Shown piece after piece: positions 10,998-53,090 of a stretch of DNA of 64,000 bases. Position 1 is the stretch's first letter. The number at the start of each line of letters is the position of its first letter. The DNA comes from Thuidium tamariscinum (Eukaryota > Streptophyta > Bryopsida > Hypnales > Thuidiaceae). A model generated the notes under the pieces. That model was not told the DNA's origin, did no database searches, and saw nothing but the letters and a program-made list of their open reading frames with translations. The stretch covers positions 992,001 to 1,056,000 of the forward strand of contig OX344757.2 of assembly GCA_947034885.2 (NCBI GenBank). Direction: 5' to 3'. Made by a program: the position numbers and the translations under genes.

Positions 10998-11501
10998 ATG
11001 AGAACAATATGTTGTGAGACATGAAGTAATACAGTTATGTGCTTTGTATGCGACCCGTTGTAAGGAGCTGAAATTCTGTTTGTGAGGAACCAATTATTGC
11101 AGGAGGCTAGTAGCAGCTGGCCGAGTGCACTTATTGGTAATTGATAGAAGAACTGATGTTAGTCAAAATTGCTCTGTAAGCTTTTTTTTTGGAATGACAG
11201 TAAACGGCAAGAATCAATGTCACTACCGACCTTTGGAAGTAGAATGTGTTGATGCAGGCAATGATAGCTCAGTCTGAAGAACTGGTCATGACAGCAGGAA
11301 ATGGTATTCTGTATAGTAGTGGGAAGATAAGATTAAATGAGTGGGGCACATATACAAGATATTGTTGTATGTAGCGGTAGCTTCCTTCTCTGAATTAACC
11401 AAATGTTGTCATAAAGTTGTTCATAGTGAGAGCAAATGAAAATGATTTCTTGTTTGACGATGTCCACTCATCCGGTGGCTCGGATGGAGTAAATGTGACA
11501 G

Positions 11502-12775
11502 GATGAAAGCATTCAATTACCGGGAGAGCGGGTTCAAAAAGAGGTGGATGTTGTGAATAGGAAGAGCTCAAGGTCAGATGTACGGAAATCTGAAATATTG
11601 GTAAGTGTGGATTACTTCTATGAGAAATGCACGTGTGTCTTCCCGTTGTAATGATAATGTACTAAGTTTGGCATGTTTTAACAGTAGTGGACTTTGAATT
11701 CTTGGGATGGCAGGAGTATATAGCTTCTTTGTCTGAGAAGCCCTTCACTGGGCCAGTGGCGACTTCGAAGGAGCCGAGGAATCCTATGAAGGACATTAGT
11801 AATCAACTCCATAAAGCAGTGGACACGATATTGTCTACCTACGAAGCCAGATGTGGCTCATTGCCATCCATGGCAGTGAATAGAGAGCAAGAAAAAGCAG
11901 GAGTTGCCTTGATGGGAAGTGAAGGACTAAGAAGCTGTAAGAGTGTTTGTCGAACAACAGCGGAGGTTCTAGGTAGTTTGCGTCCACCTAGCATGGTTGA
12001 AAGGGAAACTGGTTTGTCTCCATCATGTGCTCCGAATGCGGATATTTTGAGCCGCCTGCCAGATAAACACAATTCCCCGATAAGAAAACGAAGTACAGAG
12101 GATGGAGTTGAAGAAACGAAGGCGAACTTGCAGATGAACAAATTCCTGAATGATGCAAAGGCTCTGGAGAAACATGTGATTGGGAATGGCAAAGAGAAAG
12201 TAAGGCATAATGACATGGACGTTGGAGTTACCAAAGAAGTCATTGTTCTCCTTTCATCTTCGTCGTCGTCAGATGGAGTGGGTTATAGTCGTTTGCCTGG
12301 AGGTTCGGGCACAAGGGTAAATGACGTCACCAACATATCCAGAGCAACACTGAGGGCAGAAATAGAAGAGTTGAAACGGCAGTCCATTGAAACTGCAAAT
12401 GCGTTGAAGGTATCGGGGAGGTGTTCTAGTGTAGAGTTGGAGAAAAATAAAGGCACGCGACAAACTGAAATGCAGTATGAAGACCAAGTTAAGCAAAAAT
12501 CTTTGGAAGGAGAACAGAATGCAGTTGATCGTCGTGTCCATGAGCAAAGAAGCAAAGGGAATCCATCAAAAAATGTCGGCACCCCTGTCCATGAAGCTGA
12601 CGTGGACCTGAACGGTGAATTGGAGTGCACGTTCGAGGAGGAAATGGAAGAGGTAGATGCCCTACAAGAAGATGAGGACGACGTAAGCGAGGAAGAAGAA
12701 CCACCAGTACTTCAAAGGGATGTAGTGAAGCGGAAATTGGATTCTGAGTACGGTGGTGCAGGGTTGTTCTGTTAG
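11502..12775 (+). CDS. Acidic, coiled-coil-like ORF; probable 3' exons of the Transposase_24-like gene
   Basis: Two exons fit together in phase 0: 11502-11600 (after CAG, ending ATATTG|GTAAGT) and 11714-12775 (after GGCAG, starting EYIASLSEKPF). The long exon encodes about 350 residues with Ser-rich patches (a Ser run near 12256-12273), an EELKRQSIETANAL stretch likely to be helical, and a very acidic C-terminal zone (EDEDDVSEEEE) followed by VKRKLDSEYGG. The last residues before the TGT TAG stop lie inside the inverted terminus of the 18.5-kb block, which begins at 12759, so the natural C-terminus may have been lost. No named domain is recognised. Same strand and phase as the gene upstream suggest one transcription unit, but the connecting intron (about 500 bp) is only inferred. 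Confidence 0.5.
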
Positions 12776-12949
12776 ACATATTTTTGGGTTTCGGCGTCGT
12801 GTTGGACGTCCGATGTCGCGTGTCGTATAAGACAACCTGTCGCTACCCCGTCCCGTCCCGTCGCGCAAGGGTAAATTTTTTTACCGCGAAGTAAGAAGTT
12901 TTTGCCTACGTGGCAGGCTGTCCACGCTGACGTGGAAAGCGAGGCAGGG

Positions 12950-13130
12950 CGACTATGGGTGGGGCGACTACGCATCAAGATAGGGCGACCACGTATGTGG
13001 TTTTGAGGGCGACATCTTATCAAGGGGCGACCTCGGGTGGGCGACCGCGGGTGGGCGACCTCTTATCAAGGGGAGACTGCGGGAGGGCGACCTCGGGTAT
13101 AGGGGCGACCGCGGGTGGGCGACCTCTTTG
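12950..13130 (+). repeat. GGGCGACC short tandem repeats, left subterminal
   Basis: About eleven irregular copies of a 12-22 bp unit of the form GGGCGACCNCGGGT are present, with TCTTATCAAG variants. The same unit occurs at 13355-13450, as a mirror at 30958-31061, and five times within every 162-bp satellite monomer. Confidence 0.75.
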
Positions 13131-13665
13131 TTGGAATTTTCAAAAAAACACCCAAAACTGCCATTTTTAGTGGAAAAAACAAAAAAAATAGAAATGGTAA
13201 TTTTTTGCATATGTAATGGTAGGATCTTCTAACATTATAGTATGAGAATATGTGAAAAAAATTTCAAAAATTTTCACCACATAAATTGCAAGATAATTGC
13301 ATTCAAACTTCAAAGTAAGGAAATCATTTTTGGGGGGACTTTGGCAACCTCAAGTGGGCGACCTCTTGTCATGGGGCGACTGCGGGAGGGCGACCTCGGG
13401 TGTAGGGGCGACCTCTTGTCAAGGGGCGACCGCGGGTGGGCGACCTCTTTGTTGGAATTTTCAAAAAAACACTCAAAACTGCCATTTTTAGTGCAAAAAA
13501 CAAAAAACAAATAGAAATGGTAATTTTTTGCATATGTAATGGTAGGATCTTCTAACATTATAGTATGAGAATATGTGAAAAAAATTTCAAAAATTTTCAC
13601 CACATAAATTGCAAGATAATTGCATTCAAACTTCAAAGTAAAGAAATCATTTGGGAGGGGACAAT
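13117..13665 (+). repeat. Tandem duplication, 321-323 bp
   Basis: The block starting GACCTCTTTGTTGG near 13121 recurs at 13442 (offset 321). CATATGTAATGG recurs at an offset of about 323. The shared sequence includes the A-rich AAAACTGCCATTTTTAGTG stretch and a run ending CAAACTTCAAAGTAA. The two copies differ by only a few bases and small indels, so the duplication looks fairly recent. Confidence 0.75.
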
Positions 13666-13689
13666 GGCAAATTAAGGTAGACATGCCCA

Positions 13690-14760
13690 TTTAAAATCTA
13701 GCTATATTGGAGCCAATTCTAATAGGGGCACAGATTTCTTTAAAGTGTGCACATGTTTTTTCAATCAAATCCAAATGGAATCATAATTTTTCAATCAAAA
13801 CTGTAATTTCTGTAAATTTTTTGAAGTAGACAATTTTAAATTACAAAACCACCTCTAGGCTAAGGTCATAAACAACTTATAAACATCCTATAACCACCTA
13901 ATCAACAACTAGATGTTCTCTATTTAAATAGAAACACATTACTCCAATTTGTCATAAAATCCTTGATTTTGTCATAGAGTGAAGGGAATTGGGTTTTTTT
14001 TAGGTAGAAATGGGGCCAAAACTAGAGTGACAAAAACAAACTGGTCTACTTGGTAGAATGGAGTTTCAAATGAAAATAGACTAGTCTACTTTAGCTTAAG
14101 AGATTTGATTTCTTAACTTAAAAAAAAATTCAATTTAGATCTTGACTTTAAAAAAATTATTCTTCAAAACTAAATTGAAAATATAGGAAAAATAACTATA
14201 AAAAAAATAATGTAAATTTCATTTTATTTTAAATTGTTAGTAGAAGGTACATCATAGAGGAAAAAATAAATCATGAATAGCTCTAAGGTGGAATTAGAAA
14301 TACTAGTTCTAATAGTGAGATTGTTCTAATAATCAAAGTTAATACTACAAAACTATTTGTTTAAAAAAGAATTAAAATTGAAGTAAGAAATGAATCCTAT
14401 GTCAAACAATTTCAAAATCTTTTAATTATTGACCGCAAAATAAAATGCTTCATAATCTTCACATCATCAATCTAAATAAAATGAATCAAAGTTCTAAGTA
14501 GACAAAATTACAATCTATAAGAAAAAAACATTTTAAAACTTTTGTGAATTTGTTTTTACCTACATAATTTAGATCTAAACTTATTTTGATATGATTCTTG
14601 CCTTTAGGCACTGATTCAAATAAAACTACATTTCTAAAAAGCTAATAAGATTTTCTATCTTACAAAAGTGTTTCAAAAAGTTCCATAAAAAATTGACCTT
14701 ATAGGAACTTGTCCAAAATCCATGTTGACCCCTTGTAGAGACAATGAAACTTTAGGAGAT
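13690..14760. other. AT-rich DNA, no gene seen
   Basis: Very AT-rich sequence with many short homopolymers. No ORF, repeat unit or terminal motif that I can support. Confidence 0.5.
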
Positions 14761-14997
14761 TACAATCTACTCATGTATTACTTATCAAGAAGATTTTGAA
14801 ATATAAAATTATGGATTGTGATTTTTTTTTAAATCATCCCCATTTGATTTTTTCTAATCTTCAAGGATCATCATATTCTTATATTTCTTAGCAAGTTAGC
14901 ATCTTCACCTAAAATTTAAAAATTAGAAGAAATAGATTTGAATTAAAACTTCTCTTTGTGAGTTACGTAAAAGTCAAAGAATCATCCTAATGTTGTA

Positions 14998-16025
14998 CTG
15001 AAGGGCTGCACTATGTAATATGTTAGGACATCATGTGCATTCAAGCCCCTAAAAGATGAGGGCTATGTAGGTACATTTGATGAATTAAAATAGGGACATC
15101 TTTACGTAAATTTCTAAAGTCAAGTCATTTCAATCACCCTATCTTTATTTTGGAATTTTTTGGGGTGCTAATTAATTATACCCTATGTTCATTATATATA
15201 GAAAAGAGTTGCATTTTTCTTGCAAACACAAAGAGAAGAGGATTTAAGGCCTTATTCATTAAAATGAGACAATTTACATATTTTGAGACTTTACCCTAAA
15301 TTTTTTTTATTCATTTATCATTGAATTGACGATAAGATGAGATTGCAACCTTTGGACAATTAAAGGTTTTTACATGTATTATTGTATTAAAGTCTCAAAT
15401 TATCAAATAGACTCACAATTATAAAGTTATGACCATTTATCTTCGACTCTAAGATAAAATTGAGACTATACTTTGTCTCAATATAAGAAATAAGGCCTTA
15501 TTTCTTATTAAAACTTTAACTAAACATGTGATACATTTAAAAAAGACTAGATAAGCAATACTTCCATTCAACAATTGCATTCAAACACATTCAAAGTGTG
15601 AATACTTATAAGAGCACAACCATTAGTTGTCACCCATTAGTTGTCACCCATTAGTTGTCATGCATTAGTTGTCACCATTAGTTGTTACCATTAGTTGTCA
15701 TGCATTAGTTGTCACTCTCATTTATATGTAGAGCTCATGCTCTCATAAAATTTAGTTCATTAATAGGATTCTTAATTTCAAACTTTGTTTACTACATAAT
15801 AGTTTAGATTTTTGGAGATTCTTTTAGGCAACCCAACTTTAGAAAAAGAAGAAGAAGGTAAAGTTGTGTATTATTTCATATCCTTCATTATTTATAATGA
15901 GTAATATCCCATTTTAGTAATGCTAGTTTACATCTAAAAATTGTCTAAAATTTAGGCCAAGAGAATTAAAACCACACTTCATTTGATTGCACATTATAGT
16001 TAAAGAATTGGGAGTGCCCTTCAAG
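14998..16025. mobile_element. 1,028-bp insertion with 8-bp TSD (hAT-type candidate)
   Basis: ATGTTGTA occurs at 14990-14997 and again at 16026-16033. Deleting one copy plus the intervening sequence rejoins a normal unit of the 218-bp satellite. The ends share a short inverted motif: CTGAAGGGC at the left and, reverse-complemented, CTTGAAGGGC at the right. An 8-bp duplication with short termini is typical of the hAT superfamily. No transposase is encoded. It contains the minisatellite at 15621-15715. Confidence 0.75.
15621..15715 (+). repeat. Minisatellite, 7 copies of CATTAGTTGTCAC(C/TG)
   Basis: Seven consecutive 13-14 bp units begin with CATTAGTTGT. They alternate endings CACC, CATG, CAC and TAC. 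The array lies inside the 1,028-bp insertion. Confidence 0.85.
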
Positions 16026-17639
16026 ATGTTGTATTATTGAATAATTAGATTTCAATATACAAAAAAATGAATGAATATTTGTGTAAGAACTTCATCATTT
16101 TAATTTCTCTATTTTTCAAGCATTATTATATTCATGTATAATTTACCACCTTCACCAAAAATTTTAAGACTAGAGGGAAGAGATTATTTTAACTTAGAAC
16201 TTATCTTCTAATTTTATATAAAATTCATAGTCATTTTAATGGTGTATCATTTATAAAGTGGATTTTAGGATACAAAATAATGATTTGAATTTTGTATAAT
16301 TAAGAATTTCTTTGTTTGAATTTTTTAATTTTTCAAGCATCAATATATTCATGTATTCTTCATTACCTTTACCAAAATTTAAAAATTAAAGGGAAGAGAT
16401 TTAAATGAAAACTTTCCCTTTTAATCGAATCAAATCTTAAAGCCATCATTATGGTGTAATATTCATTAAGTGAATTTTAGAATAAAAAATAATGCATGGA
16501 TATTTGTGAACGATCTTCTCCATTTGAAATTCTCTATTTTCCAAGCATCATTATATTTATGTACTATTTATCAATTTTCACCTTCAACAATAAAGAAAAA
16601 AGAAAAAAAGAAGAGGTTTAAATAAAAACTTCTTCTTTTGATTTATACAAATGTTATTTGAAGGCTCATCCTAATGGCAAATTATTTATCAAGCAAATTT
16701 TAGAATTCAAAATAGTAGATGGAGACTTTAATAACAATTTGCCTATTTCAATTTTTCCTATTTTTGAACCATCATCATAGTCATGTCTTATTTAGGCACC
16801 ACTTTCATTTCATCTTTAAAATTAGAAGGAAGAGGTATAAGTGAAATAAGTTTTCTTTTTGATATACAACTTTATTTTGAAGGCTCATCCTCATGGTGAA
16901 TTATTTTATCAAATAGATTTTAGAACTCAAAATAGTGGATGGAGACTTTATTAACAATTTGCCTATTCAACTTTTTTCAATTTTCAAGCATCATAATACC
17001 TATGTCTTATTTAAATATGACCTTACTCTCATCTTTAAAATTAGAAGGAACAAATTAAAAAATAAAACTTCTCTTTTAGATTTATGCAACTTTTATTTGA
17101 AGGCTCATATTTTTGGTAAATTATTTATCAAGCAAACTTTAGAACTCAAAATAGTGGATAGAGATTTCAATAACAACTTGCCCATTTGAGTTTTTCTATT
17201 TCCAAAGTATCACCGTACTCATATTTTATTAGGTCACCACCTTCATGTCAATTCTAAAAATTAGTGGAAAGATATTTAAATGAAAACATTTTCTTTTTGA
17301 TTTACAAAAATGTCAAAGAATTATCCTACCAAAAACATATATCAAATAAATTCTAATATACAATATAATAGATGGAGACTCAAGTATATAAGAATATATC
17401 CATTAGAATTCTCCATTCTTTAAGCATCATTCTACTCAAGTATTTTTTATTACCTCAATCTACGATTTTAGAATTAGAAGGATGAAATTTAAATGATAAC
17501 TTCTCCTTTTAATTTATGTAAATGTCAATGAGTCATTTTAATAATGACTTATTTATGAATTGAACTTCAAAATACAAAATAATAAATAAAGATCTATGTA
17601 AAATTGTAAATTGTTCCCCATTTAATAAATCAATATACA

Positions 17640-18110
17640 AAAAATTACAATTTTATTTACAAAAACATCCATACAATAATAAATTCCCCTCTATACAAAA
17701 GTTGAATGCTCATTGAAATTTTTGACCTTATCACTTCAATTATAAAGTAGAAAAAATTCATAGATTAAAATAGACATACAAAAATTAAAGCTTTACTATA
17801 GATAATTCAAGATAAACAAATTTTGAAAAGAGCTTTAATATTTAGCAAATGATATAAGACATCTATCCATTGAAGTTTAATCTCAAACATAAACATTGTC
17901 TTAGCTCTTCAAATATAAAATGTACATTAATATGTTCAAAAATTGATGCAAGTGTAACTCATCATAATCAACTTTACTACTCTTCCCTCCAATTTAAAAA
18001 AAATGCCATACTCTATGTCTCATAGACAATTACTTCTCTACAACCTCTTATAGAAGAATACTGGTTTAGAGTCACCGCATAGGGAAGATAGAGCCATTGT
18101 CCCCAAATTT
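17640..18110. other. AT-rich spacer before the GC-rich satellite
   Basis: No gene or repeat is recognised. The sequence changes abruptly to the GGCGACC-containing satellite after about 18110. Confidence 0.5.
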
Positions 18111-18540
18111 TCAATTTTTTGCAATTTTTTGGGTATTTTGGGTCTTGGGGACCTCTTTGAAGGAGAATGTGGATCTAGGGCGACCTCTTGTAGGAGAACG
18201 CAGGTGTCGTGCGACCTCTTAAGGAGAATGCACTGTTAGGGCGACTTCTTAAGGAGGTGGGAGTTGTTTACCCCCCAAATTTCAATTTTTTGCAATTTTT
18301 GGGCCATTTTTAGTCTTAGCGACCTCTTTGAAGGAGAATGCGGGTCTAGGGCGATCACTTGCATGGGAAACGCGCTGTTAAGGCGACCTCATAAGGAGGT
18401 AGGAGTTGTTTGCCGCCCAAATTTCAATTTTTTGCAATTTGGGGCCATTTTGGGTCTTGCGGACCTCTTTGAAGGAGAATGCCGTTCTAGGGTGACCTCG
18501 TGTGGGGCTACTTCGGATCTAGGGGCGACCTCTTGTGGGC
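18110..18540 (+). repeat. Degenerate left edge of the 162-bp satellite
   Basis: Diverged units carry AATTTTTTGCAATTTT, GGCCATTTT and GACCTCTTTGAAGGAGAA blocks at irregular spacing of about 140-170 bp. Similar diverged units close the array at 26935-27290, so both edges keep an older form of the monomer while the core is homogenised. Confidence 0.75.
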
Positions 18541-21500
18541 GACCGCGGGTGTGGGGCGACCGAAGGTAGGAGAACGCGCTGTTAGGGCGACCGCGGGTGG
18601 AGGTGGGAGCCATTCCCTTGTCCAAGTTCAAAAAAAGGCATTTTTGGGCCATTTTGGGCCATTTTGGGGCGACTTCGGGTCTTGGGGCGACCTCTTGTGG
18701 GCGACCGCGGGTGTAGGGCGACCAAAGGTAGGAGAACGCGCTGTTAGGGCGACCGCGGGTGGAGGTGGGAGCCATTCCCTTGTCCAAGTTCAAAAAAAGG
18801 CATTTTTGGGCCATTTTGGGCCATTTTGGGGCGACTTCGGGTCTTGGGGCGACCTCTTGTGGGCGACCGCGAGTGTGGGGCGACCAAAGGTAGGAGAACG
18901 CGCTGTTAGGGCGACCGCGGGTGGAGGTGGGAGCCATTCCCTTGTCCAAGTTCAAAAAAAGTCATTTTTGGGCCATTTTGGGCCATTTTGGGGCGACTTC
19001 GGGTCTAGGGGCGACCTCTTGTGGGCGACCGCGGGTGTAGGGCGACCAAAGGTAGGAGAACGCGCTGTTAGGGCGACCGCGGGTGGAGGTGGGAGCCATT
19101 CCCTTGTCCAAGTTCAAAAAAAGTCATTTTTGGGCCATTTTGGGCCATTTTGGGGCGACTTCGGGTCTTGGGGCGACCTCTTGTGGGCGACCGCGGGTGT
19201 GGGGCGACCAAAGGTAGGAGAACGCGCTGTTAGGGCGACCGCGGGTGGAGGTGGGAGCCATTCCCTTGTCCAAGTTCAAAAAAAGGCATTTTTGGGCCAT
19301 TTTGGGCCATTTTGGGGCGACTTCGGGTCTTGGGGCGACCTCTTGTGGGCGACCGCAGGTGTGGGCGACCGAAGGTAGGAGAACGCGCTGTTAGGGCGAC
19401 CGCGGGTGGAGGTGGGAGCCATTCCCTTGTCCAAGTTCAAAAAAAGTCATTTTTGGGCCATTTTGGGCCATTTTGGGGCGACTTCGGGTCTAGGGGCGAC
19501 CTCTTGTGGGCGACCGCGGGTGTAGGGCGACCAAAGGTAGGAGAACGCGCTGTTAGGGCGACCGTGGGTGGAGGTGGGAGCCATTCCCTTGTCCAAGTTC
19601 AAAAAAAGGCATTTTTGGGCCATTTTGGGCCATTTTGGGGCGACTTCGGGTCTTGGGGCGACCTCTTGTGGGCGACCGCGAGTGTGGGGCGACCGAAGGT
19701 AGGAGAACGCGCTGTTAGGGCGACCGCAGGTGGAGGTGGGAGCCATTCCCTTGTCCAAGTTCAAAAAAAGTCATTTTTGGGCCATTTTGGGCCATTTTGG
19801 GCCATTTTGGGGCGACTTCGGGTCTTGGGGCGACCTCTTGTGGGCGACCGCGGGTGTGGGGCGACCGAAGGTAGGAGAACGCGCTGTTAGGGCGACCGCG
19901 GGTGGAGGTGGGAGCCATTCCCTTGTCCAAGTTCAAAAAAAGGCATTTTTGGGCCATTTTGGGCCATTTTGGGGCGACTTCGGGTCTTGGGGCGACCTCT
20001 TGTGGGCGACCGCAGGTGTGGGGCGACCGAAGGTAGGAGAACGCGCTGTTAGGGCGACCGCGGGTGGAGGTGGGAGCCATTCCCTTGTCCAAGTTCAAAA
20101 AAAGGCATTTTTGGGCCATTTTGGGCCATTTTGGGCCATTTTGGGGCGACTTCGGGTCTTGGGGCGACCTCTTGTGGGCGACCGCAAGTGTGGGGCGACC
20201 GAAGGTAGGAGAACGCGCTGTTAGGGCGACCGCGGGTGGAGGTGGGAGCCATTCCCTTGTCCAAGTTCAAAAAAAGGCATTTTTGGGCCATTTTGGGCCA
20301 TTTTGGGGCGACTTCGGGTCTTGGGGCGACCTCTTGTGGGCGACCGCGGGTGTGGGGCGACCGAAGGTAGGAGAACGCGCTGTTAGGGCGACCGCGGGTG
20401 GAGGTGGGAGCCATTCCCTTGTCCAAGTTCAAAAAAAGGCATTTTTGGGCCATTTTGGGCCATTTTGGGGCGACTTCGGGTCTTGGGGCGACCTTTTGTG
20501 GGCGACCGCGAGTGTGGGGCGACCAAAGGTAGGAGAACGCGCTGTTAGGGCGACCGCGGGTGGAGGTGGGAGCCATTCCCTTGTCCAAGTTCAAAAAAAG
20601 GCATTTTTGGGCCATTTTGGGCCATTTTGGGGCGACTTCGGGTCTTGGGGCGACCTCTTGTGGGCGACCGCAGGTGTGGGGCGACCAAAGGTAGGAGAAC
20701 GCGCTGTTAGGGCGACCGCGGGTGGAGGTGGGAGCCATTCCCTTGTCCAAGTTCAAAAAAAGGCATTTTTGGGCCATTTTGGGCCATTTTGGGGCGACTT
20801 CGGGTCTTGGGGCGACCTCTTGTGGGCGACCGCGGGTGTAGGGCGACCAAAGGTAGGAGAACGCGCTGTTAGGGCGACCGCGGGTGGAGGTGGGAGCCAT
20901 TCCCTTGTCCAAGTTCAAAAAAAGGCATTTTTGGGCCATTTTGGGCCATTTTGGGGCGACTTCGGGTCTTGGGGCGACCTCTTGTGGGCGACCGCGAGTG
21001 TGGGGCGACCAAAGGTAGGAGAACGCGCTGTTAGGGCGACCGCGGGTGGAGGTGGGAGCCATTCCCTTGTCCAAGTTCAAAAAAAGGCATTTTTGGGCCA
21101 TTTTGGGCCATTTTGGGGCGACTTCGGGTCTTGGGGCGACCTCTTGTGGGCGACCGCGAGTGTGGGGCGACCCAAGGTAGGAGAACGCGCTGTTAGGGCG
21201 ACCGCGGGTGGAGGTGGGAGCCATTCCCTTGTCCAAGTTCAAAAAAAGGCATTTTTGGGCCATTTTGGGCCATTTTGGGGCGACTTCGGGTCTTGGGGCG
21301 ACCTCTTGTGGGCGACCGCGAGTGTGGGGCGACCGAAGGTAGGAGAACGCGCTGTTAGGGCGACCGCGGGTGGAGGTGGGAGCCATTCCCTTGTCCAAGT
21401 TCAAAAAAAGGCATTTTTGGGCCATTTTGGGCCATTTTGGGCCATTTTGGGGCGACTTCGGGTCTTGGGGCGACCTCTTGTGGGCGACCGCGAGTGTAGG

Positions 21501-24500
21501 GCGACCAAAGGTAGGAGAACGCGCTGTTAGGGCGACCGCGGGTGGAGGTGGGAGCCATTCCCTTGTCCAAGTTCAAAAAAAGGCATTTTTGGGCCATTTT
21601 GGGCCATTTTGGGGCGACTTCGGGTCTTGGGGCGACCTCTTGTGGGCGACCGCGGGTGTGGGGCGACCAAAGGTAGGAGAACGCGCTGTTAGGGCGACCG
21701 CGGGTGGAGGTGGGAGCCATTCCCTTGTCCAAGTTCAAAAAAAGGCATTTTTGGGCCATTTTGGGCCATTTTGGGGCGACTTCGGGTCTTGGGGCGACCT
21801 CTTGTGGGCGACCGCGGGTGTGGGGCGACCGAAGGTAGGAGAACGCGCTGTTAGGGCGACCGCGGGTGGAGGTGGGAGCCATTCCCTTGTCCAAGTTCAA
21901 AAAAAGGCATTTTTGGGCCATTTTGGGCCATTTTGGGCCATTTTGGGGCGACTTCGGGTCTTGGGGCGACCTCTTGTGGGCGACCGCAAGTGTGGGGCGA
22001 CCGAAGGTAGGAGAACGCGCTGTTAGGGCGACCGCGGGTGGAGGTGGGAGCCATTCCCTTGTCCAAGTTCAAAAAAAGGCATTTTTGGGCCATTTTGGGC
22101 CATTTTGGGGCGACTTCGGGTCTTGGGGCGACCTCTTGTGGGCGACCGCGGGTGTGGGGCGACCGAAGGTAGGAGAACGCGCTGTTAGGGCGACCGCGGG
22201 TGGAGGTGGGAGCCATTCCCTTGTCCAAGTTCAAAAAAAGGCATTTTTGGGCCATTTTGGGCCATTTTGGGGCGACTTCGGGTCTTGGGGCGACCTTTTG
22301 TGGGCGACCGCGAGTGTGGGGCGACCAAAGGTAGGAGAACGCGCTGTTAGGGCGACCGCGGGTGGAGGTGGGAGCCATTCCCTTGTCCAAGTTCAAAAAA
22401 AGGCATTTTTGGGCCATTTTGGGCCATTTTGGGGCGACTTCGGGTCTTGGGGCGACCTTTTGTGGGCGACCGCGAGTGTGGGGCGACCAAAGGTAGGAGA
22501 ACGCGCTGTTAGGGCGACCGCGGGTGGAGGTGGGAGCCATTCCCTTGTCCAAGTTCAAAAAAAGGCATTTTTGGGCCATTTTGGGCCATTTTGGGGCGAC
22601 TTCGGGTCTTGGGGCGACCTCTTGTGGGCGACCGCAGGTGTAGGGCGACCAAAGGTAGGAGAACGCGCTGTTAGGGCGACCGCGGGTGGAGGTGGGAGCC
22701 ATTCCCTTGTCCAAGTTCAAAAAAAGGCATTTTTGGGCCATTTTGGGCCATTTTGGGGCGACTTCGGGTCTTGGGGCGACCTCTTGTGGGCGACCGCGGG
22801 TGTAGGGCGACCAAAGGTAGGAGAACGCGCTGTTAGGGCGACCGCGGGTGGAGGTGGGAGCCATTCCCTTGTCCAAGTTCAAAAAAAGGCATTTTTGGGC
22901 CATTTTGGGCCATTTTGGGGCGACTTCGGGTCTTGGGGCGACCTCTTGTGGGCGACCGCGAGTGTGGGGCGACCCAAGGTAGGAGAACGCGCTGTTAGGG
23001 CGACCGCGGGTGGAGGTGGGAGCCATTCCCTTGTCCAAGTTCAAAAAAAGGCATTTTTGGGCCATTTTGGGCCATTTTGGGGCGACTTCGGGTCTTGGGG
23101 CGACCTCTTGTGGGCGACCGCGAGTGTGGGGCGACCAAAGGTAGGAGAACGCGCTGTTAGGGCGACCGCGGGTGGAGGTGGGAGCCATTCCCTTGTCCAA
23201 GTTCAAAAAAAGGCATTTTTGGGCCATTTTGGGCCATTTTGGGCCATTTTGGGGCGACTTCGGGTCTTGGGGCGACCTCTTGTGGGCGACCGCGAGTGTA
23301 GGGCGACCAAAGGTAGGAGAACGCGCTGTTAGGGCGACCGCGGGTGGAGGTGGGAGCCATTCCCTTGTCCAAGTTCAAAAAAAGGCATTTTTGGGCCATT
23401 TTGGGCCATTTTGGGGCGACTTCGGGTCTTGGGGCGACCTCTTGTGGGCGACCGCGGGTGTGGGGCGACCAAAGGTAGGAGAACGCGCTGTTAGGGCGAC
23501 CGCGGGTGGAGGTGGGAGCCATTCCCTTGTCCAAGTTCAAAAAAAGGCATTTTTGGGCCATTTTGGGCCATTTTGGGGCGACTTCGGGTCTTGGGGCGAC
23601 CTCTTGTGGGCGACCGCGGGTGTGGGGCGACCGAAGGTAGGAGAACGCGCTGTTAGGGCGACCGCGGGTGGAGGTGGGAGCCATTCCCTTGTCCAAGTTC
23701 AAAAAAAGGCATTTTTGGGCCATTTTGGGCCATTTTGGGGCGACTTCGGGTCTTGGGGCGACCTCTTGTGGGCGACCGCAGGTGTGGGGCGACCAAAGGT
23801 AGGAGAACGCGCTGTTAGGGCGACCGCGGGTGGAGGTGGGAGCCATTCCCTTGTCCAAGTTCAAAAAAAGGCATTTTTGGGCCATTTTGGGCCATTTTGG
23901 GCCATTTTGGGGCGACTTCGGGTCTTGGGGCGACCTCTTGTGGGCGACCGCAAGTGTGGGGCGACCGAAGGTAGGAGAACGCGCTGTTAGGGCGACCGCG
24001 GGTGGAGGTGGGAGCCATTCCCTTGTCCAAGTTCAAAAAAAGGCATTTTTGGGCCATTTTGGGCCATTTTGGGGCGACTTCGGGTCTTGGGGCGACCTCT
24101 TGTGGGCGACCGCGGGTGTGGGGCGACCGAAGGTAGGAGAACGCGCTGTTAGGGCGACCGCGGGTGGAGGTGGGAGCCATTCCCTTGTCCAAGTTCAAAA
24201 AAAGGCATTTTTGGGCCATTTTGGGCCATTTTGGGGCGACTTCGGGTCTTGGGGCGACCTTTTGTGGGCGACCGCGAGTGTGGGGCGACCAAAGGTAGGA
24301 GAACGCGCTGTTAGGGCGACCGCGGGTGGAGGTGGGAGCCATTCCCTTGTCCAAGTTCAAAAAAAGGCATTTTTGGGCCATTTTGGGCCATTTTGGGGCG
24401 ACTTCGGGTCTTGGGGCGACCTCTTGTGGGCGACCGCAGGTGTGGGGCGACCAAAGGTAGGAGAACGCGCTGTTAGGGCGACCGCGGGTGGAGGTGGGAG

Positions 24501-26935
24501 CCATTCCCTTGTCCAAGTTCAAAAAAAGGCATTTTTGGGCCATTTTGGGCCATTTTGGGGCGACTTCGGGTCTTGGGGCGACCTCTTGTGGGCGACCGCG
24601 GGTGTGGGGCGACCAAAGGTAGGAGAACGCGCTGTTAGGGCGACCGCGGGTGGAGGTGGGAGCCATTCCCTTGTCCAAGTTCAAAAAAAGGCATTTTTGG
24701 GCCATTTTGGGCCATTTTGGGGCGACTTCGGGTCTTGGGGCGACCTCTTGTGGGCGACCGCGAGTGTGGGGCGACCAAAGGTAGGAGAACGCGCTGTTAG
24801 GGCGACCGCGGGTGGAGGTGGGAGCCATTCCCTTGTCCAAGTTCAAAAAAAGGCATTTTTGGGCCATTTTGGGCCATTTTGGGGCGACTTCGGGTCTTGG
24901 GGCGACCTCTTGTGGGCGACCGCGAGTGTGGGGCGACCCAAGGTAGGAGAACGCGCTGTTAGGGCGACCGCGGGTGGAGGTGGGAGCCATTCCCTTGTCC
25001 AAGTTCAAAAAAAGGCATTTTTGGGCCATTTTGGGCCATTTTGGGCCATTTTGGGGCGACTTCGGGTCTTGGGGCGACCTCTTGTGGGCGACCGCGAGTG
25101 TGGGGCGACCAAAGGTAGGAGAACGCGCTGTTAGGGCGACCGCAGGTGGAGGTGGGAGCCATTCCCTTGTCCAAGTTCAAAAAAAGTCATTTTTGGGCCA
25201 TTTTGGGCCATTTTGGGCCATTTTGGGGCGACTTCGGGTCTTGGGGCGACCTCTTGTGGGCGACCGCGAGTGTAGGGCGACCAAAGGTAGGAGAACGCGC
25301 TGTTAGGGCGACCGCGGGTGGAGGTGGGAGCCATTCCCTTGTCCAAGTTCAAAAAAAGGCATTTTTGGGCCATTTTGGGCCATTTTGGGGCGACTTCGGG
25401 TCTTGGGGCGACCTCTTGTGGGCGACCGCGAGTGTGGGGCGACCAAAGGTAGGAGAACGCGCTGTTAGGGCGACCGCGGGTGGAGGTGGGAGCCATTCCC
25501 TTGTCCAAGTTCAAAAAAAGGCATTTTTGGGCCATTTTGGGCCATTTTGGGGCGACTTCGGGTCTTGGGGCGACCTCTTGTGGGCGACCGCGAGTGTGGG
25601 GCGACCAAAGGTAGGAGAACGCGCTGTTAGGGCGACCGCGGGTGGAGGTGGGAGCCATTCCCTTGTCCAAGTTCAAAAAAAGGCATTTTTGGGCCATTTT
25701 GGGCCATTTTGGGGCGACTTCGGGTCTTGGGGCGACCTCTTGTGGGCGACCGCAGGTGTGGGGCGACCGAAGGTAGGAGAACGCGCTGTTAGGGCGACCG
25801 CGGGTGGAGGTGGGAGCCATTCCCTTGTCCAAGTTCAAAAAAAGGCATTTTTGGGCCATTTTGGGCCATTTTGGGGCGACTTCGGGTCTTGGGGCGACCT
25901 CTTGTGGGCGACCGCGAGTGTGGGGCGACCGAAGGTAGGAGAACGCGCTGTTAGGGCGACCGCGGGTGGAGGTGGGAGCCATTCCCTTGTCCAAGTTCAA
26001 AAAAAGGCATTTTTGGGCCATTTTGGGCCATTTTGGGGCGACTTCGGGTCTTGGGGCGACCTCTTGTGGGCGACCGCGAGTGTGGGGCGACCAAAGGTAG
26101 GAGAACGCGCTGTTAGGGCGACCGCGGGTGGAGGTGGGAGCCATTCCCTTGTCCAAGTTCAAAAAAAGGCATTTTTGGGCCATTTTGGGCCATTTTGGGG
26201 CGACTTCGGGTCTTGGGGCGACCTCTTGTGGGCGACCGCAGGTGTGGGGCGACCGAAGGTAGGAGAACGCGCTGTTAGGGCGACCGCGGGTGGAGGTGGG
26301 AGCCATTCCCTTGTCCAAGTTCAAAAAAAGGCATTTTTGGGCCATTTTGGGCCATTTTGGGGCGACTTCGGGTCTTGGGGCGACCTCTTGTGGGCGACCG
26401 CAAGTGTGGGGCGACCGAAGGTAGGAGAACGCGCTGTTAGGGCGACCGCGGGTGGAGGTGGGAGCCATTCCCTTGTCCAAGTTCAAAAAAAGGCATTTTT
26501 GGGCCATTTTGGGCCATTTTGGGCCATTTTGGGGCGACTTCGGGTCTTGGGGCGACCTCTTGTGGGCGACCGCGGGTGTGGGGCGACCGAAGGTAGGAGA
26601 ACGCGCTGTTAGGGCGACCGCGGGTGGAGGTGGGAGCCATTCCCTTGTCCAAGTTCAAAAAAAGGCATTTTTGGGCCATTTTGGGCCATTTTGGGGCGAC
26701 TTCGGGTCTTGGGGCGACCTCTTGTGGGCGACCGCGGGTGTAGGGCGACCGAAGGTAGGAGAACGCGCTGTTAGGGAGACCGCGGGTGGAGGTGGGAGCC
26801 ATTCCCTTGTCCAAGTTCAAAAAAAGGCATTTTTGGGCCATTTTGGGCCATTTTGGGGCGACTTCGGGTCTTGGGGCGACCTCTTGTGGGCGACCGCGGG
26901 TGTGGGGCGACCGAAGGTAGGTGAACGCACTCTTA
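18540..26935 (+). repeat. 162-bp satellite array with 1,802-bp higher-order repeat
   Basis: The motif CATTCCCTTGTCCAAG occurs 51 times between 18611 and 26800, almost always 162 bp apart. Exceptions are one 161-bp step (19259 to 19420) and 172-bp steps caused by a third copy of GGGCCATTTT. Each monomer contains about five GGGCGACC motifs. The 172-bp steps begin at 19744, 20078, 21384, 21880, 23186, 23844, 24988, 25160 and 26466. An 1,802-bp period (nine 162-bp plus two 172-bp monomers) appears as 20078 to 21880, 21384 to 23186 and 23186 to 24988. Diagnostic variants repeat at the same distance: GACCTTTTGTG at 20490 and 22292, and again 22454 and 24256. Long ORFs on both strands arise only because 162 is divisible by three. 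Confidence 0.95.
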
Positions 26936-27290
26936 GGGCGCCCTCTTAAGGAGGTGGAAGTTGTTTGCCCCCAAATTTTCAATTTTTTGCAATTTTGGGG
27001 CCATTTTGGGGCTTGGGGACCTCTTTGAAGGAGAATGTGGGTCTAAGGCGACCTCTTGTAGGAGAACGCGGGTGTAGGGCGACCTCTTAAGGAGAACGCG
27101 CTGTTAGGGCGACCTCTTAAGGAGGTGGGAGTTGTTTGCCCCCAAAATTTCAATTTTTTGCAATTTTGGGGCCATTTTGGGGCTTGGGGACCTCTTTGAA
27201 GGAGTACTCGGGTTTAGGGCGATCATTTGTATAGGAACGCGGGTTTAAAACATAATTTTATAGGAGAATGCTTGTCTAAGGCGATTGTAG
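26935..27290 (+). repeat. Degenerate right edge of the 162-bp satellite
   Basis: Two diverged units resemble those at 18110-18540. They carry TTGTTTGCCCCCAAA, TTTTTTGCAATTTTGGGG and GACCTCTTTGAAGGAG blocks. Similarity fades after about 27290. Confidence 0.75.
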
Positions 27291-27589
27291 TTGGTGTGTG
27301 AGCTATTACCTTGCTTTTGGATGAGTTTCTTTTATTTTGAAATTTTTTGGCCATTAAAACGAGGTTTTGAATTTCTTAACTTTCTTTCAATTCTACTTGA
27401 AGAATTATTTATTATTATTTTTTGTCCGAGGGTTCTCATATCATCACAGACTCTGGAGACCCTAGAAATAGTTATTTTCTAAATTATTGAAAAATATTTA
27501 TTGCTTACCTCCTCTTTGTTTCTTCGATTGAGTTTAGAGAGCTTAATGTCTTTATATTTTTCTCTAGGAATGTATTTTAGGAGTTCTTG

Positions 27590-30500
27590 ATTTCTAGGGT
27601 TTGTAATGCTTGAAGAACCATTGTCCCTTTAGGGAACAAATGAGATTTTATATAGGTACCTATTGTCTTAATTTTTGTCTTGATTATTGGATTTTTTTTT
27701 GAAGATAGAAAAATTGATTAGCTTCATATGAATTTATATTTTTTCAATTAGTATCCAAGATAAAAATTTATGCCTAAATAAACTCAAAACAAAAGAGAGG
27801 AGTAGCCCACAACAATTTTTAAAATCAAAGTTTTATTTTTTATTTTTTTCTCATAGATTATATTTTTGCCTACATGAAAAGTTTTGATACATTTGGATTT
27901 ATTTTGAGAAAGTTATGAACAATCTTGTTTCTTGGACAATTGAATCATTGTCTTGAAAAATAATTTATTGAATTCATATCTAAATGCAATATTTACAATT
28001 ATTAAAAAGGATATCCACGAATTTTTGTACTAGTTAGGTATAAGAATCTAAGGTTAGATGCCGAAAAAAAAAATTTCAAATTTTTCTTCTCTTTGCTATA
28101 AAAATGAGAGTTTAAGTATTTTTTTTTGTAGAAAAATGGCCTTGGTCCTTTAGGGATTAAGAACTCAAGTGTTCTAAAATTGCCCTTGTTCTTCAAATTG
28201 TCCCTCTATATAGTGCTAAAATCTTTATTATGGTTTGCAAGCTCTTTCTTGTAATTATGCATTAAAAATAAACAATCTGGTTGTCTAGTTAAAACTTTTA
28301 ATGTCATTTAAGAATGACGAAAAGAAGCCCTAAAATAAAGATGCATTAGGGAACTATGTGGGTTGACTTTATGTACCTTGATATTATTTTTTTATCCCCC
28401 AAGATTCATTCCAAATATCTTATTATGGAAAGAAAGTTGAAGAACTATTGGTAGATGACTCTAGAATTATTCTCTGTGAATAGGTGACAACATTTAAAGA
28501 AGAGTATAGTAAGAATGCAAGAAAAGTATAAATACACAATGGAATCTATGTTGTATTTTATTAGAAAATTTGCCGAATTAATGAAAATGAATTAATAATA
28601 TGGAAAAAATACAATAGTGAAGTTTCTGAAAATGCATCAATTAATGAAGAAGTTGAGTGTATTGATCTAAAGAAGCAATTGGCAAGTAGATAGTTGGTGG
28701 ACTTGGTTATGGATAAACCATGGTTGATGAAGCCCTTGAAAGTAGTTTCCTCCATCCATTGTTTTGTAATAAGACATGATATTATTATACTAGCATAAAT
28801 TCTTAAGCCACATTGCATGCCTCTAAATTTCAAAAAGTAATGTAAATAAATTAACTCGTTCTTTTATGATGTGCCATTTAAAAAAGAATATTGAATATCC
28901 TATATGCAAGGTGATAAGGTGTTGAGGTCTATGTATAGAATCTCAAATTTGAATTTTCTTGTGCAAATTTTTGTAATTTTTGACATAAAATTTACTCTCA
29001 TTTGTTCATTTCTAAATTATTATGTGAAAAAATTTGCAAAAATGAAATTAAAATATAACTTGTAAGGGATCAAAAATCCACTTGTCTAAAGCTATGATTA
29101 ATTGTATTTGGACTAAACATAAAAAATTATAGACAATCTTGTTTATTGAGCAATTATAGAAACTTCTTGAAAAAGTAACATATTAGATTTCATTTTGAAT
29201 GCAATTTTCACAAATTTTCTAAAAAATTGTTTGTCAAGGTTAAATTTTCTTCCTAGAAGAATCACACAATTAGAATTTACATGTTTCAATTACATCTTAG
29301 AACTATTAATAATTTATTTTCTTGTTCAACCTATTTCTACTTAACAATTTGTTAACCCCTAAGTACTCAAGCAACCATTTTTGGTTGTTGCCTTACTTTG
29401 GGTATAATTTTTGGGCATAATTTCTTTTTGCTTTACTTTAAAAAAATAGATTGTCTTTCAACATTTACATTCAAAACTAATGAAGATCAATATGGCCAAA
29501 AAGAAATTATTAAAAAAATATCATGAAGTGTTTATAATTGCATAGTGTTGAAAAACTTAATATTTGGAGAAAGTGTTGATGCTCTCATTACTAGATCTTT
29601 TTCATTTTTTCACAAATCAATAGAAATCATAGTTTTGACTAATTCAAATAAAACATCAAGTACTATTTAAGATGAAAATTGTATTTTTGGTGATTTTTTT
29701 GAAGTTATATCTTCAAAATTCATTTGAAGATAATCTAAAAACAACTTTATAACTGTATCTATATAGATAATTTCTATTTTTTGTGCTTCACATAATCTTC
29801 TTTGATGCTAACTTCAAAAAAATTATAGAAATTATATTTTATCACATTTGTATTTTGTCCTAACCCCTTGGGCTCTTAGGAGTAATTCAACATAAAAAAC
29901 AAAGTCTATAGTGCATAAATTTTCCACAAATAGTGGTCAAAGTCATTGAAATTGTAGGCCAACATTCAAAATTTTATTTTTCCAACTTTGAATGCAAATA
30001 TCTTCTAATTTGTGGGTGATTGCATGAAAGACTTGTACTATTTGTTGCGTTTTGCAATAGTACTTCTGACTTTTTTTGGAGTACTATTTAATTAGAAAAA
30101 TAATTTTTAAATTAAAAAAATATGTCTTATACATACACCTTTAAGACAAAGGTACCTACAAAAGGAATTGTATAGGAAAATTTTCTAAGTAGGAGAACTA
30201 GAAAAGTGCCAAACCTTAAGAAAATACATACCTTCATGTTTTAATTAGGGAAAAATAGTAAGAATAAGTAAATACAAAAAATAAAAAGTGTCCATTTGCA
30301 ACAATTTTATGGAGATGGTCATTCAGTTAAAAATCTACCAAAATAATATTTTATATGTTTCAAAATACAAGCAAAATGAAGCTCTCTTTGTAGATCTCCA
30401 CATGACATAAAATTAACTATTTTTAAGAATCCTTGTGTGTAAAACTAGAAGTCTATTAGAAGACCATCTCATCCAAATTTCATCTCAAAATCATTAAAAA

Positions 30501-30890
30501 AACGGTATTCCATAGTACTAAGAACTTCCAAATTGTCATATGTGACATTCAATCACTAGTATTATTTTTATATTAAATATTTTTGAAAATTATCAAAAAT
30601 TCATGTAAGCTATATGATAGTTATGAGTACCTTTTCTAGAAATCTTGAGTCATTTGGAGCAAAAATACAAAAGTTATGGTCAAAAAATAGATCAACATGA
30701 GACATGTGATGAAAAATAGTACAAGTCTTTCATACAATTGCCTTTATATGGTCATACCTCATGAAAATTTTATCACATGATTTTAGACAAGTGAAGTAGA
30801 AGATTTTATTGTTACATCCACTTTTTTGTATTTTTAGAGAAGTGTAACAAATGTAATTTGCAATAGAAGAGGTTGCCCCCTTTTTTTTGC
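27590..30890 (+). repeat. Dispersed repeat family R1, broken second copy
   Basis: Pieces at 27590-28200, 28980-29350 and 29890-30890 match 230-1190 in the same order. Unrelated AT-rich insertions lie between them, as does the 729-bp element at 30014-30742. No coding sequence is recognised. Confidence 0.45.
30014..30742 (+). mobile_element. 735-bp TIR family, diverged copy
   Basis: The interior is clearly homologous, in the same orientation, to 34075-34809: matching TACCTTCATGTTTTAATT, TTGCAACAATTTTATGGAG and CATCTCATCCAAATTTCATC blocks. The ends are degraded: GGGTGATTGCATGAAAGA at the left and, reverse-complemented, GGCAATTGTATGAAAGA at the right. The flanking sequences on both sides resume the R1 repeat, so the copy inserted into R1. 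It is the oldest-looking of the three copies. Confidence 0.8.
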
Positions 30891-30915
30891 AATGGAATTT
30901 CTCCATATGTTAACT

Positions 30916-30922
30916 AAAAAAG

Positions 30923-30955
<33 letters not shown>

Positions 30956-30957
30956 AA
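30916..30957 (+). repeat. A-rich tract (about 40 bp)
   Basis: An almost pure A run with a few G interruptions ends exactly where the GGCGACC-type repeats of the right subterminal region start. It may be a retroposon tail or an assembly-sensitive homopolymer. Confidence 0.8.
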
Positions 30958-31061
30958 GAGGTCGCCCTTACCCGAGGTTGCCCTTACCCGAGGTCGCCCC
31001 ACCCGAGGTCGCCCCTACCCGAGGTCGCCCTACCCGAGGTCGCCCTACCCGTAGTCGCCCT
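30958..31061 (-). repeat. GGGCGACC short tandem repeats, right subterminal
   Basis: Seven copies of a 15-16 bp unit read on the minus strand as AGGGCGACCTCGGGT. They are oriented opposite to the left subterminal copies at 12950-13130, so both sets point into the block. Confidence 0.9.
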
Positions 31062-31169
31062 AAAATGTAACACGTAGATGCCACATGGCATCCAGGTGGC
31101 ATTATTTTCCACGTGGTAATTTAAAAAAAGTCAAAGGTAAATTTGACTTTTATGGACGTCGCGGAGGGT

Positions 31170-33265
31170 CTACTGGACGTTTCGTGACGTCGCGATGTTG
31201 CGATGTCGCAATGTCCGGCAGAACAACCCTAGTTTCCCTGGAAAGTCTGGGTGCCGGTTTGTCCCCCCCTCACGAACGAACTGCTCACTTCGCCTTCCAT
31301 TACGGATAATATCATTACCAGACATGGGCTCCATTTCTGTCTCCAATTCAGCCCCATAATCAAATGTAGCAAAGTCCCCTCTAAAGTAATGATTGGCTTG
31401 TAAGAAACGCCTATGACAATTACAATACACCATTTTCCTTAAGACTTTGGAATAACGTGCTACTATGTTCGGTCCACAAACAGTACATGCTTTAAAGCCC
31501 TTCGTCATCATGCCTGAAACCAATCCATAACCAGGGAAATCGTGTAGTGTCCACATTAGACAACCACGAAGACCAAAGTACGCATCGCCACCCTCTGCTC
31601 GTGCATCCATGGTTCAAACCCCCTCGGGCTTCCACAACTCTTGCAGCTCATCAATAGCTGGCTGTATAAAAACGTCAAAGGCATGTCCGGTGATAAGTAC
31701 TTTCGATGGAATTAGTAAAGTCAGCATCACAAAATACTTTTTGGTCACTAACCAGGGAGGAAGGTTGTAGTTGAAAAACATCACCGGCCAGATGCTCGAT
31801 GTGCTCCTCTTCTCAGACCATGGATTAAAGCCATCAGTCGCCATCCCCAAATGTAGGTGTCTAGGGTCAGACCCGAATCTGTTCTCCATTGACTCCGGTT
31901 CTAACTCCGTGTCTACGCACTTCCATTGAGGTGAATCAGCTGTGTGTCGCATTTTCCCATCTGTACTGCGATTGTGAAGGTGCCAAGTATTTAGTTCCGA
32001 CAACTTTTTTGAAGCAAACATTCTTTGCAACCTAGGTATCAATGGGAAATGCCTTAGTACCAAAGAAGGTACTCTAGAACGACCACACTGTTTGTAACGA
32101 CTACTACCACATTGGGGGCAGCTGTCCTCCGCCTCCATCAATCCTTGGAAGAGAACACAGCCTTCTAGACACGCGTGAATTATGTTATACGACAACCCGA
32201 AATTCTTCAACACTTTGTTGGCCTCGTACTCCGACTTAGGTAAGACATTCTGAACGGGTAAAATACTCTTACTCAAGAGCATTAGAAGCTCATTGACAAA
32301 TGCATTCGAAACATGATGTGTGCGGCAACAATTCAAAATCAATAGGGTGGCACTCAGCATGGACAGTGATGCACCCTCAAACAAAGGCAGGGTGGCTGCC
32401 ATTTCGACTCCCGGATTCTCACCACCTTCGCCATTCGGAATCTGGCCAAACAATTCCTCCATGTCGTCTTCTTCAGTGTCCGAGTTTGAACCGTCGTCGC
32501 TACTCGACGATGAGGGCTCTTGAAATAGCGGGTATACATTTTCGGGTGCATCCTGGAATTCTTCATCCTCGTCATTTACCACTGGTGCTTCTTCGGACCC
32601 TACTGAAACTTCAAATGCTGCTGCTGAATCGGAAGTGCTTCCTCCATTGGAATTCTGTCCAAGTCCTCCATTACTCAACAACTGATTCTGTGTAACCTCC
32701 ACTGCTGCACGATGAATTACGTTTGCTCTTGCAAAAGCATGTCTTACCATGCGGGCAACCCCCACACCTCCATCCAGTGGAATCTCTTGAATGGGCTCTT
32801 GCAGTCCAAGAAATGCCCTTGCATTCTCACCAATACTGGCCTCCCATTCCTCATCCGAAGAGTCCTCTTCTTCTCCCTGTCACAGAAACAAAATGATCAT
32901 TACAAAAAATGCAGTGAACCTTCAGTATTGCAATAACATGTTTCCCATGTCTACCATTTCATAAAGCTCTACTGAAAAATACTTACAGGTGCACATCCCC
33001 GAAGAGCACCATGTCGTCCCCTGAGCTTCAAATGACTCACAACAGTCCTTCTACTGCATGGTTTCCTTCGACCACCACAAATGTTGCACGGGCATCTATA
33101 TGTGCTAATGCCTTGCCTCGCTGCTCTATCTTCATCCCTCCTGTACAATTTCAAGTCTCTGGCTTTGATGCGCTCTGGATGAGTCAAAGGTAATCTTTGA
33201 CTACCCTCCATTTCCATATTCGTAGTTCCTGTATTACTCGACTGAATTACGACTTCCGCATTCAA
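31170..33265 (-). pseudogene. TNP2-like CACTA (En/Spm) transposase, truncated with in-frame stop
   Basis: Exon 1 (33265-32987) ends GCACCT|GTAAGT and exon 2 starts at 32876 after a CAG acceptor. Both are phase 0, giving a 110-bp intron. Exon 1 holds the N-terminal Cys/His region (YRCPCNICGG, then VVSHLKLRG). Exon 2 has a long acidic Ser-rich linker, then the Transposase_21 core: CPQCGSSRYK, DGFNPWSEKRS, SSIWPVMFFNYNLPPWL, LLIPSK and FIQPAIDELQELW. TGA at 31614-31616 interrupts the frame just after this. Reading continues directly with LRGCLMWTLHDFPGYGLVSG and FKACTVC, both standard for TNP2. The C-terminal part expected in TNP2 proteins (typically 700 residues or more) is missing because the sequence runs into the TIR of the 18.5-kb block at 31230. 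This enzyme class cuts and moves CACTA elements. The copy is inactive as read. Confidence 0.85.
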
Positions 33266-42400: not shown

Positions 42401-42408
42401 TTTTTAGC

Positions 42409-42768: not shown

Positions 42769-42776
42769 CTTTTTAG

Positions 42777-52945: not shown

Positions 52946-53090
52946 CGTTTCTTATCAAAGCCATTGTTACTAAAGTAGGGGATATGTTGCAGTCACCTGT
53001 CAACAAAAATGCAACTTCAAATCGTAGTGAATGCATTGCAGGAGAGCTTTGTAATTTTCCTTGTACTTACTGGTATTTGTTTGGTCGCAG

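Follow-up and report, generated by a model that had tools for sequence, protein, structure and literature searches.

The 64,000-nucleotide window analysed here comes from Thuidium tamariscinum (assembly GCA_947034885.2, contig OX344757.2, positions 992,001 to 1,056,000) and carries a long transposon-like block with a 162-bp satellite array at its centre. In the genome that we searched (363 Mb, 19 contigs, labelled C1, C2 and so on), the window is C9:992001-1056000. The block, hereafter the window copy, lies between a left-flank gene that we call gene X and a CACTA transposase gene, and a 361-bp miniature inverted-repeat transposable element (MITE) follows downstream (Table 1). The first-pass annotation had proposed that the block and the MITE share hAT-type ends, and our comparison agreed: CAGGGTTGTTCTG is exact at the left end of the block and has one mismatch at the right, and the MITE ends have one and no mismatches. 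The coordinates of the MITE needed a small change, as it spans 361 bp from 42408 rather than 360 bp from 42409.

The 13-mer CAGGGTTGTTCTG occurs seven times in the window with up to two mismatches, against a shuffle mean of 1.62, and none of 100 shuffles reached seven. Short terminal inverted repeats starting with CAGGG, as in hAT elements, were present in the window copy, the MITE and the relatives described below. By size, only the 361-bp element fits the MITE class, which accommodates neither the window copy (18.5 kb) nor its ten relatives (8.9-12.5 kb). Inward-facing subterminal repeats had also been claimed for both sides, and GGGCGAC was indeed found 16 times on the plus strand and never on the minus strand at the left end, and six times on the minus strand and never on the plus strand at the right. 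The central array holds 261 such motifs on the plus strand and none on the minus strand. Across the window, GGGCGACC was observed 226 times against 0.42 expected. Between its repeat-bearing parts, the window copy contains no open reading frame (ORF) of 120 or more amino acids.

Table 1. Features of the window and of the 29.45-kb relative; positions refer to the window unless a contig is named.
Feature	Position	Strand	Remarks
Satellite-bearing hAT-type element, window copy ('W')	12759..31231	+	18,473 bp; probable hybrid; without target duplication; from ends, homology and flanks
Left terminal inverted repeat CAGGGTTGTTCTG	12759..12771	+	exact
Right terminal inverted repeat TAGGGTTGTTCTG	31219..31231	-	one mismatch: terminal base A for G
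Left subterminal GGGCGAC cluster	12947..13438 (first to last motif start)	+	16 motifs, each pointing inward
323-bp tandem repeat, 1.8 copies	13085..13670	+	repeated in 8 of 10 relatives with a unit of 303-322 bp
219-bp tandem repeat, 2.6 copies	16620..17186	+	219-bp unit in 9 of 10 relatives, 226-bp unit in the remaining one
Degenerate array edge, periods 30 and 142 bp	18176..18532	+	tandem-repeat scan
162-bp satellite array	18503..26940	+	51 units by anchor; Tandem Repeats Finder 51.5 copies, 96% matches
Degenerate array edge, period 171 bp	26875..27244	+	tandem-repeat scan
Right subterminal GGGCGAC cluster	30961..31054 (between outermost motif starts)	-	6 motifs, all inward
Left flank, gene X (our own name)	10173..12758	+	broken after CGGTGGTG; 97% copy at C11:9594895-9595894
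Right flank, CACTA transposase gene (Transposase_21)	31232..32879	-	broken at GTTTCCCT by the right end of the element
MITE, 361 bp, ends as in the window copy	42408..42768	+	target duplication CTTTTTAG at 42400-42407 and 42769-42776
29.45-kb hAT element, five large ORFs	C1:7134478-7163927		29,450 bp; target duplication CGCACTGG

At the genome level, we hold with good confidence that the window block is non-autonomous and belongs to a family of giant hAT transposons, which is the best explanation of the data as a whole. The 13-base end has 270 genome occurrences, against 26 for its reversed control. Ten satellite loci were taken at full length in contig order (seven of the seven listed on C1 and three of the four on C2), six of which the 13-base end search had already placed between end pairs. 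Each proved to be a complete element, bounded by inverted ends and flanked by an 8-bp target duplication. The ten fall into two subfamilies. Six have the window-type CAGGGTTGTTCTG ends and measure 10,390-12,516 bp; the other four, the sister subfamily, end in CAGGGTTTTCTTG (left) and CAGAGAAAACCCTG (right) and measure 8,907-10,358 bp. The sister end, searched as a 21-mer, has 92 genome occurrences against none for the reversed controls. Outside the array, the window copy is 95-99% identical to its subfamily (96-98% in the longest pieces on the left, 97-99% on the right), and the interiors of the two subfamilies are 83-87% identical in long pieces; these comparisons report aligned pieces of more than 1500 bases only. 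Target duplications of 8 bp flank the MITE and all eleven full-length relatives (six, four, and one 29-kb element described below). The window copy has none, its flanks reading cggtggtg on the left and gtttccct on the right.

The satellite is a regular component of these transposons. It occupies the same internal place in all ten relatives, and the usual copy of the window's subfamily has three GGGCGAC clusters (left, middle and right), the middle one being the 162-bp array. Counted with a 21-base anchor allowing up to 5 mismatches, the relatives carry 3, 3, 5, 5, 5, 6, 6, 7, 7 and 12 units, with 3-6 in the six copies of the window's subfamily and 6-12 in the four sister copies, and the window copy carries 51. 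The intermediates postulated in the first-pass annotation thus exist, in 10 of 10 full-length relatives. Searching the genome with a single 162-bp unit yielded 278 matches, and the part of them that was listed was grouped into 39 loci, 38 besides the window copy. At 38 of these 39, an element end lies on the same strand 5.0-6.8 kb upstream (26 window-type, 12 sister-type), by coordinates only and with ends hand-picked from the end searches. A satellite widespread without these termini had been named in advance as the case that would overturn the proposal; an end within 8 kb upstream of 38 of the 39 listed loci speaks against such a satellite. We therefore rejected a free satellite at the same 38 loci, where the repeat does not form long arrays outside transposon ends, as a satellite in the strict sense would. 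Two points weigh on the other side: the locus at C11:15789318, whose nearest listed end, of the sister type, is 12.7 kb away, and the scoring of only 40 of the 133 satellite candidates.

Larger elements share these ends. Among the 100 ends listed of the 270, all on C1-C4 and analysed with the family-A kinases of the same contigs, there were 26 convergent neighbouring pairs less than 60 kb apart: 13 span 26-31 kb, 10 span 10.4-12.5 kb and the other 3 about 51 kb. For the ends listed, a kinase gene lies inside 13 of the 13 pairs of 26-31 kb, and a scored satellite inside 9 of the 10 pairs of 10.4-12.5 kb. This division into two classes has exceptions that count against it, namely one 10.5-kb pair without a scored satellite and the three pairs of about 51 kb. 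The latter (51.3-51.6 kb) lie at C2:8496968-8548247, C2:13392366-13443958 and C3:20984598-21036221; two contain the kinase, and the third has an ORF4 match at C3:21013840. They may be a larger class or nested insertions.

The gene and motif layout of the 29-kb class was read from one element of 29,450 bp, whose large frames run from stop to stop, with start codons not proven. Its 1134-amino-acid transposase frame matched DUF659 (7.2e-32) and Dimer_Tnp_hAT (1.9e-7) in Pfam, and its 527-amino-acid frame a protein kinase (E 1e-12). The frames of 403, 506 and 725 amino acids have a common stretch of about 100 amino acids with 35-47% identity, and the longest shows weak RING matches (best E 0.0005, below the Pfam cut-off). 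We regard these three as paralogous accessory proteins, one with a RING-like stretch. Compared with E4, one of the short elements, the 29-kb element is alike over about 280 bp at the left end (89%) and about 200 bp at the right (82%); elsewhere the likeness is limited to short motif-level matches and two stretches of about 215 bp (71-73%).

For the kinase, 82 places were scored out of 702 candidates: 72 show 90-100% identity and 10 show 71-72%. Stop-free kinases comprise 34 full-length copies and one partial copy among the 72, and 8 among the 10. ORF4 lies 4.0-8.5 kb downstream of 62 of the 72, and the transposase ORF has 41 scored places among 869 candidates, with 94-100% identity and 19 of them stop-free. 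From this recurrence of kinase, ORF4 and transposase, the genes appear to move together as one set. Giant relatives probably exist for the sister subfamily too, because nine of the ten divergent kinases are found 22-28 kb away from a sister end, always oriented in the same way. For one pair with a kinase of each kind, nonsynonymous divergence (dN) was 0.18 and synonymous divergence (dS) 1.25, with a ratio of 0.14 (Nei-Gojobori), and this pair indicates that the kinase is under purifying selection. Both kinases conserve HNDLSPRN, and DFG reads DWG in the sister kinase.

The 29-kb element is likely the autonomous, mobile parent of the short elements. Elements of about 29.4 kb would supply transposase to the short elements and to the MITE. 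Other giant mobile elements fit it poorly. Starship elements are marked by a tyrosine recombinase and Teratorn by viral genes, and for the five large ORFs the Pfam matches above or near the cut-off were a hAT transposase, a kinase and a weak RING match, with neither a recombinase nor a viral family among them. A viral origin of the kinase was probed by scanning viral contigs once, using six peptide patterns, and no match appeared.

The 29-kb element has 57 copies of GGGCGAC in 6 clusters. The first is at the left end, and each of the five frames has another upstream, with its near edge 0.2-0.4 kb from the frame; the last cluster doubles as the right-end cluster. Four internal clusters each upstream of a different ORF arose in 13 of 200,000 random placements, and the end motifs point inward in 11 of 11 short elements. 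A 112-bp tandem repeat of 2.5 copies lies within the transposase-upstream cluster (L037:6554-6833 in the 29-kb element) and is perhaps an early array. By analogy with En/Spm, whose TNPA protein binds subterminal repeats (PMC2613891), we lean towards GGGCGACC as a putative site of an element-encoded DNA-binding protein, which would act at the ends in transposition and in front of genes in regulation.

Several points weaken this role for GGGCGACC. The binding is putative, the layout comes from one 29-kb copy with ORFs bounded by stops, its right-end cluster is of mixed orientation (8 plus, 6 minus), and the placement test counted a cluster midpoint within 900 bp, a limit chosen after the map had been seen. 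A passive origin of the clusters is accordingly the strongest competitor and a real possibility, though we give it well under even weight: GC-rich tandem repeats prone to growth would have no binding role, and the arrays would grow neutrally. The mixed right-end cluster suits such an origin, as does the wide range of unit number (3 to 51), and no binding protein for GGGCGACC is known. Against it, every one of the 57 exact GGGCGAC of the 29-kb element belongs to the left end or to a stretch preceding one of the five large ORFs, and the end motifs of every short element face inward. A more speculative extension of the binding role, which we regard as doubtful, is that the 29-kb element is self-regulated, with GGGCGACC marking the ends and every promoter and with a selected kinase and RING protein needed for mobility or control. 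The short carriers would then be parasitic, and their arrays would be multi-site landing pads that capture or titrate the shared binder, so that array length is selected and does not merely drift.

The flanks of the window copy point to another kind of event. On the left, the 97% copy of gene X on C11 continues uninterrupted past CGGTGGTG, without the element; C11 alone continues at high identity, other matches being partial and 68-83% identical. On the right, homologues of the CACTA transposase are uninterrupted at GTTTCCCT, which is exact in one and present as its last seven bases in a second. The two genes also keep company elsewhere, with the transposase 20-110 kb upstream of gene X on the same strand at 14 of 17 gene X loci (merged from 27 matches). 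Random placement gave a mean of 0.46 and a maximum of 4 in 5000 trials, with the five weakest of 37 transposase matches omitted and the length of C5 guessed. From this fixed order and spacing, gene X and the transposase are therefore probably parts of one giant CACTA-like element family. The window has gene X, then the hAT element, then the transposase, with 19.5 kb between the match starts of gene X and the transposase. Each has a partner of its own, as gene X has a 70% transposase match 27 kb upstream and the window transposase a 71% X-like stretch 65 kb downstream. Together with these partners, the two genes (window 10173-12758 and 31232-32879) occupy C9:976684-1088455.

Based on these flanks, we think that the window copy is probably a hybrid, formed by recombination of two insertions in the same orientation, and that its array grew afterwards. 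One hAT copy would have inserted into gene X and a second, in the same orientation, into a giant CACTA-like element next to it, within the transposase gene. Recombination between the two would delete the intervening DNA and leave a hybrid without a target duplication, which would explain both the absent duplication and the unlike flanks. The earlier proposal that the whole had stayed between transposon ends thus holds for the satellite, which lies wholly inside, and fails for the ends, which point to two different insertions. The alternative named as refuting it, ends from two separate small elements, appears right about separate insertions and wrong about size, as both would be full-size elements.

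We tried to assign the two halves of the window copy to different parents, and identity to the ten relatives was uninformative. Both halves are nearest to the same two relatives, with small margins (left 97.6-97.8%, right 98.5-98.9%), so that different parents are not indicated, which speaks neither for nor against the hybrid. A point against it is that an assembly misjoin within the array would also give mismatched flanks. The reciprocal recombination product was sought through the gene X continuation, with the C11 copy as the only high-identity match; this is expected if the excised segment was lost and is not evidence in itself. C11 (17.5 Mb) carries 15 of the 37 CACTA transposase matches on about 5% of the genome, and it is perhaps a sex, B or heterochromatic chromosome.

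A misjoin of two satellite-bearing elements through their arrays, with both the length and the flank mismatch as artefacts, seems to us unlikely. The flanks do not match, and a near-identical array (96%) is where misjoins occur. However, both flanks seem to derive from CACTA-like elements that are neighbours on one contig and share their orientation, a rare outcome of random joining, and the 8.4-kb array is not collapsed, with 23 distinct sequences among the 50 units compared. We give slightly less weight still to a single insertion that acquired a different right flank afterwards, for instance through a deletion beginning exactly at the right end, with no recombination between elements. It would agree with the single element present today and with a high-identity continuation of gene X on C11 only. 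Yet the right flank starts at an 8-mer that is intact in one transposase homologue and lacks only the first base in the second, as expected of a true second insertion site, and a chance deletion rarely stops at the end base.

Within the window copy, the array itself is an extreme expansion of the standing internal array, the longest ordinary one among the ten relatives having 12 units. Mean edit distance between its units was lowest at lags 11 (3.46) and 23 (3.59) and was 4.1-6.3 at the other lags from 1 to 24. The higher-order structure announced in the first-pass annotation is therefore present as a weak repeat of about 11-12 units. Since 38 of 2000 shuffles of unit order matched the minimum over lags 2-24, the signal is modest, which tells somewhat against it. 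The lag pattern fits growth in blocks of about 11-12 units, on the same modest evidence. The middle array would alter its length by unequal exchange or by slippage during gap repair, and the window array may have reached 51 units through further unequal exchange, perhaps in such blocks.

The origin of the array also needs revision. Amplification from the subterminal repeats, as first proposed, is ruled out as the direct source in the window copy by the mid-element array in 10 of 10 relatives of two subfamilies. The satellite is a separate mid-element cluster, and its presence in both subfamilies suggests that it predates their split; alternatively, recombination between the subfamilies may have spread it. 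Homologous arrays in two subfamilies with different ends might also suggest a free satellite family captured by the elements, but we consider this very improbable, as the 39 listed loci include no free array except possibly the one 12.7 kb from an end, and the array sits at the same place in homologous interiors (83-87% in long pieces).

Known plant hAT elements such as Ac/Ds and Tag1 have hAT ends, an 8-bp target duplication and short subterminal motifs; they measure about 3-5 kb, with one transposase gene and without a central satellite. The hobo element is also a hAT, and the work on its tandem copies is reportedly that of McGurk and Barbash 2018. Tandem copies of hobo led to the proposal of a DNA transposon as satellite seed (PMC7214746, PMC12628747); there, entire elements are in tandem, whereas here the unit is an internal one of 162 bp. 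Internal arrays of DNA transposons are already known as satellite seeds in Tetris, Galileo and Helitrons (PMC9659126, PMC4168063, PMC12628747, PMC7214746).

The closest likeness is to Tetris/TIR-220 of Drosophila virilis, a non-autonomous foldback DNA transposon with tandem units in up to 66 copies and homogeneous arrays (PMC7214746). Tetris resembles the window family in that the units are amplified inside a non-autonomous DNA transposon. However, its units are in the terminal inverted repeats and its arrays near heterochromatin, whereas ours is a single, central array in one orientation, and 38 of the 39 listed loci still lie inside element ends. The long inverted ends with units in both directions that define Foldback/Tetris elements are missing here, where only short end clusters were found. 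Galileo, of the P superfamily in Drosophila, combines variable internal tandem repeats with ectopic recombination between copies (PMC4168063); its repeats are in long inverted ends, and its superfamily and transposase differ from those of the window family. Besides the subterminal repeats of En/Spm, those of Tgmt*, a CACTA element with a large putative autonomous copy of 20.5 kb and a 3-bp target duplication, are comparable (PMC2613891). Both differ from the window family in their CACTA ends and other transposase, and no kinase is mentioned for them in the available portion of that paper.

A term search of two reviews on transposons and satellites turned up no hAT element that carries such an array internally: 'hAT' is present in the 2022 review (PMC9659126) in two reference titles only and is absent from the 2025 review (PMC12628747), which mentions hobo once. 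Likewise, the matches listed from the open-access literature for satellites borne by hAT elements, for giant hAT elements and for subterminal repeats included no described counterpart. New here are the hAT context, a series of intermediates that are themselves complete elements, the proposed link to a recombinant insertion, and the likely five-ORF 29-kb parent with its apparently selected kinase. Ten complete elements with 3-12 units, and one with 51 between ends, open the growth step to study with real intermediates. The hybrid flanks, if confirmed, link the largest array to recombination between copies, a process by which pieces of chromosome would be lost or rearranged. With its transposase, its selected kinase and a motif common to the ends and the upstream regions, the 29-kb parent would stand out among hAT elements for its complexity.

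Outside the element, the window contains a 170-bp tandem duplication (48701-49041), arrays of 51- and 95-100-bp units (58282-58821), and a B3-like DNA-binding domain that, like the CACTA transposases, suggests a plant source (53055-53441; E 4.6e-6, just under the Pfam cut-off).

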